Source: Bernardetiaceae bacterium
GTDB taxonomy: Bacteria; Bacteroidota; Bacteroidia; Cytophagales; Bernardetiaceae
Direction of reading: 5' to 3'
DNA: 34,680 nt
Assembly: GCA_020832465.1 (NCBI GenBank)
Contig: JAFIER010000014.1
Coordinates: 1 to 34,680, forward strand
The notes beneath the pieces are model-generated. The model made no database searches. It saw only the letters and a list, made by a program, of their open reading frames with translations, and was not told where the DNA came from. Positions 3,712 to 30,506 of the stretch are shown here, piece after piece. The stretch's first letter is position 1; every line of letters begins with the position of its first letter. The translations under genes were made by a program, and so were the position numbers.

Positions 3712-4914
3712 ATGCAAAAAAATCAAACCAACCTCTCACTTTACGAGACAGACAAATCCAATTACTTACCTACTTTTGCACGCTTTCCGCTTGCTTTCTC
3801 TCATGCAAGTGGTGCTCAAATTTGGGACGTAGAGGGCCGAGCTTACCTTGACCTTTTGGCAGGTATTGCAGTCAATAATGTAGGGCATTGCCACCCTAAG
3901 GTCAGTGCAGCGATTAGCCTTCAGGCGCAAAAACTGATGCACATTTCAAACTTTTTTGTCAGCGAACCCCAAGTGGAGCTTGGTGAGCGACTTACACGCT
4001 CTGCGGCTATGAACCGTGTATTTTTTACCAATAGCGGTGCCGAATCTGTAGAGGGTGCAATCAAAATTGCACGTAAATACGCTTTTAAAAAGGGGCGAAG
4101 CGGTCAGATTTTATTTATGGAAAATAGTTTTCATGGACGCACCTTAGCCACTATTGCAGCGGGTAAAAAAGCCTATCAAAAAGGTTTCGGACCTATTCCA
4201 GAAGGTTTTCAGTCCTTGCCTTTTAACGATATTCAAGCCGCTCGTGCTGCAATCAATAAAGATATTGCTGCTGTTATTCTCGAGCCTATACAAGGCGAAG
4301 GAGGTGTTGTACCTGCTGATACAGACTACTTAAAAGCGATGCGCCAACTTTGCGACGAGCAAGGCGTACTGCTTATTTTTGATGAAATTCAATGCGGCAT
4401 AGGGCGTAGCGGAAAATTATTTGCCAAAGATCTCTACGGTGTGCAGCCCGATATAATGACCTTAGCCAAAGGCTTGGGCGGTGGCATGCCTGTAGGTGCA
4501 TTTTTATGCACAGAAAAAGTAGCTGCCGAGATAGACGGAGGCGATCATGGCACTACCTTTGGCGGAAATCCATTAGCTTGTGCAGCCGCACTTGCAACGC
4601 TAAAAGTCATAGAAGAAGAAGGACTTTGCGGGGCAGCAAGGCATACAGGGGCGTGGCTTACCGAAAAACTCGAGGGTTTGAAAAAGCGTTTTCCAAATCA
4701 TATCAAAGAAATAAGAGGAAAAGGCTTAATGCTCGGCGTAGTTATGCACAGCGAAGCCAAACCTATTGTAATGGCACTCCTCGAAAGAGCTATTATTGCC
4801 AATGCCACCGCCGGAAATGTACTGCGCTTAGTGCCCCCTTTGAATATTCGCAAACAAGAGCTCGAAGTCTTTTTAAATGCCTTTGAAGAAATTTTAAATA
4901 GTATGAAAGCCTAA
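3712..4914 (+). CDS. argD: Acetylornithine aminotransferase (ArgD)
   Basis: A 400-residue PLP-dependent class III aminotransferase of the usual length for the family. It converts N-acetylglutamate 5-semialdehyde and glutamate to N2-acetylornithine and 2-oxoglutarate in arginine biosynthesis; ArgD enzymes often also act on succinyl-diaminopimelate precursors. Visible landmarks are TNSGAESVEGAIK (106-118), SFHGRT (139-144), EPIQGEGGV (191-199), FDEIQCGIGRSG (223-234, with D224 expected to bind the pyridine nitrogen), the Schiff-base lysine K253 in TLAKGLGGGMP, and HGTTFGGNPLAC (279-290). The ATG at 3712 gives a normal N-terminus (SLYETDKSNYLPTFARFPL). It lies in the same direction as argB but is separated from it by the H-NOX gene and the repeat cluster, so it is probably transcribed on its own. 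Ornithine and succinylornithine aminotransferases are the main alternatives. Confidence 0.93.
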   Translation: MQKNQTNLSLYETDKSNYLPTFARFPLAFSHASGAQIWDVEGRAYLDLLAGIAVNNVGHCHPKVSAAISLQAQKLMHISNFFVSEPQVELGERLTRSAAMNRVFFTNSGAESVEGAIKIARKYAFKKGRSGQILFMENSFHGRTLATIAAGKKAYQKGFGPIPEGFQSLPFNDIQAARAAINKDIAAVILEPIQGEGGVVPADTDYLKAMRQLCDEQGVLLIFDEIQCGIGRSGKLFAKDLYGVQPDIMTLAKGLGGGMPVGAFLCTEKVAAEIDGGDHGTTFGGNPLACAAALATLKVIEEEGLCGAARHTGAWLTEKLEGLKKRFPNHIKEIRGKGLMLGVVMHSEAKPIVMALLERAIIANATAGNVLRLVPPLNIRKQELEVFLNAFEEILNSMKA

Positions 4915-5017
4915 CCCCATAAAAGCACAAATAAATCTCATAAATTCAATAAAAATGAGGGCTTAATCAAAGCCAAAAGAAAAACTAATTATTTTTTTGA
5001 AAAAAAGTGAGCATTTA

Positions 5018-5049
5018 TTTGCACAAACAAAAAAAGTTTTATATCTTTG
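5018..5049 (+). promoter_or_regulatory. Bacteroidota-type promoter upstream of a small RNA
   Basis: TTTG (5018-5021), exactly 20 bases, then TATCTTTG (5042-5049), a full match to the Bacteroidota primary-sigma consensus. Transcription is expected to begin near 5055. No open reading frame of useful length follows before the terminator at 5109-5141. Confidence 0.65.
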
Positions 5050-5054
5050 TATTG

Positions 5055-5141
5055 TCGGTTCTATCACAGAATCGACGTGTTTTCATAGCTGGTTGAAAGA
5101 TTACAGAAAAAAGGCTCTTCGCTGAAGGGTCTTTTTTTTTT
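5055..5141 (+). ncRNA. Candidate small RNA of about 87 nt, family unknown
   Basis: The stretch is bounded by a consensus promoter and an intrinsic terminator. It contains a hairpin of 8 pairs (TCGGTTCT 5055-5062 with AGAATCGA 5068-5075, one G-U, loop ATCAC), about 33 unpaired bases including CATAGCTGGTTGAAAG, and the terminator stem. It does not show the features of SRP RNA, 6S RNA, tmRNA or tRNA that I know. It lies between argD and the sdh operon, which has a separate promoter about 90 bp further on. A leader attenuator for sdh is a possible alternative, but the strong terminator and the second promoter favour an independent transcript. Confidence 0.5.
5109..5141 (+). terminator. Intrinsic terminator of the candidate small RNA
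   Basis: AAAAGGCTCTT (5109-5119) pairs along its length with AAGGGTCTTTT (5125-5135), allowing two G-U pairs, with loop CGCTG. A run of ten T follows at 5132-5141. Confidence 0.75.
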
Positions 5142-5233: not shown

Positions 5234-5265
5234 ATTGCAAAACTACTCTTTGATATGTATCTTTG
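5234..5265 (+). promoter_or_regulatory. Promoter of the sdhCAB operon
   Basis: ATTG (5234-5237), 20 bases, TATCTTTG (5258-5265). This matches the Bacteroidota consensus in both boxes and spacing and predicts a leader of about 100 nt before the sdhC ATG at 5375. I see no clear riboswitch-like structure in that leader. Confidence 0.65.
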
Positions 5266-5374: not shown

Positions 5375-6052
5375 ATGAATTGGTTTACACGTGTATTAAC
5401 GAGTAGCATAGGGCGTAAGGTTTTGATGGCACTTACGGGGCTGTTTTTAAGTCTATTTCTTGTGGTTCATTTGATAGGCAATTTACAGCTTTTAGCTGGC
5501 GATGAGGGTGCGGCGTTCAATGCGTATGCAGCCTTTATGACTACTACGCCTATTGTCAAGGTTGCTTCTTACCTTCTTTATGCTACTTTTTTGTTGCATA
5601 TCGTGCAAAGTATTTTGCTTACGATGCATAACCGCTCGGCACGCCCAGTGGGGTATCGTAGCGCGGGCAGTTCGCAGGGCGTATCCTCTACCTCGCGTAA
5701 TATGGGGATTTTGGGTACGATTATCTTAGTTTTCTTGATTATCCATTTGCGTAATTTCTGGTACGAGATGCATTGGGGCGAAATCACTACAGATGCAGCA
5801 GGCAATAAAGACCTTTACAAGGTTGTTTCTGAAGCATTTGCTCAGTGGTGGTACGTGGCTTTGTATATTGTTTCTATGGTAGGCGTGGGTTTTCACCTTT
5901 GGCATGGCTTTGCCAGTTCGTTCCAAACCTTAGGTTTGAATCATGCAAAATACACCCCCTTTATTAAAAGTTTAGGTTATGGTTTTGCTATTCTTATTCC
6001 CTTGGGTTTTGCGCTGATTCCTATCATTATGTTTGTACAAAGTGGCAATTAA
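5375..6052 (+). CDS. sdhC: Succinate dehydrogenase/fumarate reductase cytochrome b558 subunit
   Basis: A 225-residue integral membrane subunit that anchors the succinate:quinone oxidoreductase and carries haem b near the quinone site. Five hydrophobic segments can be read at roughly 15-36, 62-84, 110-128, 158-178 and 200-221. Histidines placed in or near them (H32, H75, H85, H124, H174, H177) are the candidate haem ligands, as in the single-anchor, dihaem type B enzymes. The start MNWFTRVLTSSIGRKVLMAL is typical of the Bacteroidota b558 family. It is the first gene of the operon with sdhA and sdhB; a 227-bp gap with a hairpin separates it from sdhA. Direction (succinate oxidation or fumarate reduction) cannot be told from sequence. 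Confidence 0.92.
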   Translation: MNWFTRVLTSSIGRKVLMALTGLFLSLFLVVHLIGNLQLLAGDEGAAFNAYAAFMTTTPIVKVASYLLYATFLLHIVQSILLTMHNRSARPVGYRSAGSSQGVSSTSRNMGILGTIILVFLIIHLRNFWYEMHWGEITTDAAGNKDLYKVVSEAFAQWWYVALYIVSMVGVGFHLWHGFASSFQTLGLNHAKYTPFIKSLGYGFAILIPLGFALIPIIMFVQSGN

Positions 6053-30475: not shown

Positions 30476-30506
30476 CAAAGATAATAATGCCTATTGAATA
30501 TACAAA
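30476..30506 (-). promoter_or_regulatory. Promoter of the 7TM-DISM phosphatase gene
   Basis: On the minus strand, TTTG (30506-30503), 19 bases, then TATCTTTG (30483-30476). Both boxes and spacing fit the Bacteroidota consensus; the start of transcription is expected near 30470, giving a leader of about 110 nt. Confidence 0.6.

Follow-up and report, generated by a model that had tools for sequence, protein, structure and literature searches.

Does the 460-nt gap that separates argD from sdhC accommodate a gene of its own and, if so, what might the product of that gene do? A sequence-only reading of the 34,680-nt stretch of DNA analysed here (the window) had proposed that positions 5018-5141, which lie inside this gap, constitute a complete small transcription unit made up of a consensus promoter, a structured, frame-free stretch of about 87 nt and a strong intrinsic terminator, with sdhC served by a separate promoter further downstream. 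It is now established by computation that the locus belongs to a conserved, structured RNA gene family. It is also reasonably probable, as far as sequence can indicate, that 5054-5138 specifies a stand-alone, trans-acting small RNA (sRNA) of an uncatalogued Cytophagales family, the conserved core of which would serve as a seed that hides start codons and thereby represses translation.

Organisation of the predicted transcription unit

Each of the components proposed for the locus was found (Table 1). The upstream promoter, in which TTTG is followed after 20 nt by TATCTTTG, takes the Bacteroidota sigmaA form, and because the sigmaA box TAnnTTTG has been mapped at -12 to -5 in Flavobacterium (PMC9723704), promoter spacing would place the transcription start at G5054 and give an RNA of ~85 nt. 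By itself the promoter is weak evidence, since the TTTG-N19-21-TAnnTTTG pattern occurs three times in the 34.7 kb of the window against 0.98 expected; apart from the copy that precedes the sRNA, an exact match lies at 30476-30506 on the minus strand. The promoter claimed for sdhC consists of TTG at 5235-5237 and a second TATCTTTG box at 5258-5265.

The predicted 85-nt transcript folds with a minimum free energy of -30.4 kcal/mol compared with -16.6 kcal/mol for shuffled sequences (z = -5.05), a value equalled by none of 200 shuffles. The terminator hairpin comprises 16 pairs, GU pairs allowed, with a loop of 3 nt and a T tract immediately after it. A listed 42-codon frame opening with TTG runs over the sRNA (4997-5125), and because this frame begins upstream of the promoter the transcript contains no listed frame. 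Judged on its sequence, the locus is best read as a free-standing gene that appears to possess the attributes generally looked for in a stand-alone sRNA, namely its own promoter, no reading frame, a conserved RNA structure and an intrinsic terminator.

Table 1. Coordinates in the window of the predicted sRNA gene, its component features and its flanking genes
Feature	Position	Strand	Basis or remark
argD	3712-4914		TIGR00707; upstream flank of sRNA gap
-33 promoter element TTTG	5018-5021	+	Sequence; pattern count
-7 promoter box TATCTTTG (Bacteroidota TAnnTTTG)	5042-5049	+	Sequence
Predicted small RNA, ~85 nt	5054-5138	+	Fold z -5.05; covariance-model match 5045-5135
5' hairpin, 9 bp	5054-5076	+	Fold; equivalent hairpin covaries in 18 relatives
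Conserved core CATAGCTGGTTGAAAGA, predicted seed	5084-5100	+	Conservation; ensemble pairing
Intrinsic terminator hairpin and T tract	5105-5141	+	Hairpin 5105-5139
Separate sdhC promoter (TTG ... TATCTTTG)	5235-5265	+	Sequence; context, outside sRNA
sdhC	5375-6052		TIGR02046; downstream flank of sRNA gap

An uncatalogued family distributed across the Cytophagales

The sequence-only reading had recognised no RNA family in this locus and had called for both an Rfam/Infernal scan and a search for conservation in the Cytophagales. Scanning of the window against Rfam 15 returned nothing at the gathering threshold, as did the scan of 20 relatives, and the claim therefore holds for that collection; the sub-threshold matches recorded in the window were to BTnc231 (23.1 bits, with 80.4 needed) and FopS (20.4 bits, with 56 needed). 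Searches of the available literature for sRNAs of the Cytophagales or of Cytophaga yielded no relevant paper. The family is uncatalogued, a new family of a known kind of sRNA.

The conservation search was more productive. With up to two mismatches allowed, the 21 nt enclosing the core CATAGCTGGTTGAARGA (window 5084-5100) were found in 71 of the 241 genomes of the order, a figure that includes a few chance coding matches (e.g., TTTTCATAGCTGGATGAAACA), and in 43 of 103 genera, against three matches for a reversed-pattern control. In the remaining genomes most mismatches affected the four leading bases or lay towards the 3' end, sparing CATAGCTGGTTGAARGA. Two families, coded f10 and f12, account for a large share of the 241 genomes and gave no match, and family f19 yielded a single doubtful set at three mismatches. 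Named carriers include Thermoflexibacter ruber (two loci), Flexithrix dorotheae, Flammeovirga pacifica and a Bernardetia MAG, the flanks listed for the last being identical to those in one genome of the family to which the window belongs. Closer to hand, a second copy on the minus strand elsewhere in the same genome (G000:C101:11075-11130) carries the identical 21-mer TTTTCATAGCTGGTTGAAAGA with a 5' hairpin and terminator that differ in sequence from those of the window copy, and the same 21-mer recurs exactly in relatives. It is conservation, invisible to the sequence-only reading, that lifts the locus well above chance, as does its membership of a large family with a near-invariant core, which that reading likewise could not reveal.

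The layout of 5' hairpin, core and terminator is retained in relatives, and among 60 distinct members, defined as loci passing simple filters for core and terminator, nearly all fold better than shuffled sequences (z-scores between about -0.4 and -6.5, the majority under -3) and 57 lie outside any frame of 90 or more codons. In 18 relatives with the hairpin-core-terminator layout, the 13-bp 5' hairpin is paired in 97% of alignment cells and ten of its 13 pairs display compensatory double changes, a level reached by none of 500 shuffles; sliding one strand of the hairpin alignment destroyed this covariation. A covariance model built from those 18 relatives, into which no sequence of the window's family was admitted, recovered window positions 5045-5135 at E = 2.7e-6, the same-genome paralogue at 6.1e-6 and two sister genera at 4.1e-11 and 3.3e-7.

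The neighbourhoods of these loci bear on a very improbable alternative, that the RNA acts in cis on the gene downstream, in the window sdhC, as its leader or attenuator. That gene is indeed the next one downstream on the same strand, 233 nt off, and two sister genera have the RNA immediately ahead of a UbiA prenyltransferase gene on the same strand (L018 1642-2550; L073 551-1450). However, the downstream genes vary between loci, a fixed position upstream of one type of gene or operon was not observed, and sdhC has the promoter box of its own already described; moreover, at 24 of 57 loci, among them that of the same-genome paralogue, the RNA and the next gene downstream converge, so that a role as cis leader is hard to sustain. 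The occurrence of relatives in unrelated gene neighbourhoods likewise argues against an sdhC leader.

Several further loci deserve record. One relative has three tandem sRNA copies at L162 1005, 1388 and 1770 (G025:C62), spaced ~383 nt apart, and two further copies (L096 and L129) share one contig of a Cytophagales MAG. A second type of sRNA, seen in one genus and present in several copies per genome (L237, L288, L289, L290, L292, L313), has a TAACTTTG box followed 8 nt on by CATAGCTGGTTGAA(A/C)ATAAAAACACCC and usually a terminator; the core stands at its 5' end and is followed by different downstream sequence. Among eight viral contigs checked there was one convincing candidate, IMGVR_UViG_3300036376_000018 (L509 7090-7160), in which a hairpin, the core CATAGCTGGTTGAAGGA and a terminator suggest a phage- or prophage-borne member.

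Extension of the family to the whole class with the core TTTCATAGCNGGNTGAAA was rejected, since most matches beyond the order have flanks in common that belong to a single, unrelated coding gene. Exact 19-mer matches in 'uncultured Bacilli', Aeromonas and Planococcus were rejected as being without a strong terminator hairpin; those in 'uncultured Bacilli' share one conserved flank.

The conserved core as a putative seed

The invariant stretch of the core starts exactly at CAU, the complement of AUG. In the mechanism that we favour, the sRNA would be transcribed from a sigmaA-type promoter of its own and end at the intrinsic terminator, the 5' hairpin would probably shield its 5' end, and the core 5'-CAUAGCUGGUUGAARGA-3', lying between both hairpins, would act as the seed. 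This core is complementary to 5'-UCYUUCAACCAGCUAUG-3', corresponding to a start codon and the 14 nt preceding it, and pairing would be expected to hide the start codon and so diminish translation of target mRNAs, which on this mechanism would carry CAGCTATG-like starts.

Several considerations point to start-codon pairing, and together make such a mechanism likely: the CAU with which the core begins, the accessibility of its 5' part (in the ensemble of many family members its first 9-11 nt are largely unpaired), the existence of members composed of core and terminator, the second sRNA type with the core at its 5' end, and the analogy with FopS discussed below. The members composed of core and terminator are about nine short ones in which TAnnTTTG lies only 8-16 nt upstream of CATAG; their RNA would begin with the core or directly beside it and contain nothing else but the terminator, a layout equivalent to that of a 5'-seed sRNA.

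In many TTTTC-type members, that of the window included, the core is able to close a 6-bp hairpin of its own, which counts against the seed reading. The hairpin, UUUUCA-UAGCUGGU-UGAAAG, has the same 8-nt loop as the 23S rRNA hairpin GGGAGA-UAGCUGGU-UCUCCC (a 41-nt E. coli sequence with the UAGCUGGU loop is annotated as 23S rRNA), it forms in the fold of the window copy, and RNAalifold draws the same structure for the 18 relatives. The core could on these grounds be a protein- or ribosome-related structural motif, the RNA mimicking rRNA and thereby binding or titrating a ribosomal or RNA-modifying protein. We nevertheless consider such mimicry improbable: the stem of the core hairpin pairs without compensatory change, the TTTCC and ATTCC subtypes break it by a C-A mismatch, short members have little or none of its 5' half, and by our estimate a 10-mer shared with ~4.5 kb of rRNA has a ~3% chance of arising when all core 10-mers are counted.

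The search for targets

If the core does act as an anti-start-codon seed, its complement might be expected at gene starts. In 37 carrier genomes the core complement AACCAGCTATG occurred 222 times, sRNA loci counted, as against 82 occurrences of ACCAAGCTATG, a rearrangement of the same word that preserves its dinucleotides. In carrier genomes of other families, nine of the 20 automatically listed non-sRNA sites of AACCAGCTATG coincided with the beginning of an open frame, compared with none of 28 for the rearranged word (Fisher p = 1e-4), these counts not being fully independent because some of the start-site genes are mutual orthologues. Several of the frame starts belong to genes resembling those of envelope proteins. 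The corresponding proportion was 5/30 in genomes in which no sRNA was detected (p = 0.05 versus 9/20), and only 6/59 (p = 0.17) in the window's family together with two related families.

Within the window's own genome, where an extended seed was used and AACCAGCTATGAAA was sought with up to two mismatches, none of the 12 ATG-bearing sites was a start-codon target, and the total of AACCAGCTATGAAA-like sites did not exceed that of the control (51 versus 61). Core-complementary sites were not enriched at 142 gene starts across the examined loci. Neither sdhC nor any other gene of the window could be retained as a target, the matches being no better than chance. Evidence for targets is thus suggestive as regards other families, and the window's genome supplies none.

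This lack of start-codon targets in the window's genome would be accommodated if the core were conserved for pairing with another RNA, whether an sRNA, a sponge partner or a phage RNA, or with mRNAs at positions other than the start codon. The near-invariant stretch of 17 nt exceeds the usual length of a seed, and the candidate on a viral contig is consistent with such a partner. Set against this are the precision with which the core begins at the complement of AUG and the enrichment of start sites in some families, and we attach to this alternative, too, a low probability.

The start-codon-blocking reading can be taken further, to an order-wide system in which several types of sRNA (hairpin-core-terminator, core-terminator and multicopy 5'-core) employ one near-invariant 17-nt anti-start-codon core to silence mRNAs having AACCAGCT directly before the AUG. 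We put this forward as a doubtful proposition that, if true, would reveal a common 'address' on a group of mRNAs, those of mobile-type and envelope genes among them. In L265, L264, L280, L291 and L278, AACCAGCT directly precedes the ATG of genes that, judged by eye, seem to be of mobile type, a set that comprises REP-like transposase, four-helix-bundle, GxxExxY and GIY-YIG proteins.

Significance and comparison with known small RNAs

To our knowledge, work on small RNAs in the Bacteroidota has concentrated on Bacteroides and a small number of flavobacteria. A near-invariant 17-nt core in about three of every ten sampled Cytophagales genomes, cultivated species such as Thermoflexibacter ruber and Flexithrix dorotheae among them, offers a ready way into the study of post-transcriptional regulation in the Cytophagales, and the covariance model can be used for annotation of the family.

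Three known systems invite comparison. Rfp18 of Flavobacterium, the third stem-loop of which is described as pairing with metalloprotease mRNAs (PMC9723704), resembles the present RNA, by description only, in being conserved, structured, presumably trans-acting and from the same phylum. With the Bacteroides sRNA BTnc231 (RF04180) the likeness lies in alignment of its model to the hairpin, the linker and a similar terminator; however, that sub-threshold match rests largely on the terminator.

The third comparison is with FopS (RF04319, taken together with GibS), which binds the RRM protein RbpB. There are 14 FopS in B. thetaiotaomicron, and FopS blocks translation of susC at the start codon (PMC11697453). 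The two groups are alike in that their members are short, occur in several copies, have a sigmaA promoter and contain TTTTCATAG in a conserved seed, which in FopS pairs near start codons and in the present family is predicted to do so, the R1' seed of FopS being GTGTTTTTCATAGTATTAGATTTAAGGTTAACAAA, which contains TTTTCATAG (PMC11697453). Multiple copies are present here also, two in the window's genome and three in tandem in a relative, and the viral-contig candidate parallels the phage- or prophage-borne members reported for FopS. The shared sequence is, however, essentially TTTTCATAG (alignment versus shuffles, p = 0.01 for the window copy and 0.002 for the paralogue); the remainder of the core is unlike the R1' seed, the FopS covariance model scores the locus below its gathering score, in many Cytophagales members the core is preceded by a 5' hairpin that covaries, and the invariant part of that core would pair upstream of the AUG. 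The family thus provides a comparison for FopS through which to ask whether the phylum evolved anti-start-codon seeds on more than one occasion.
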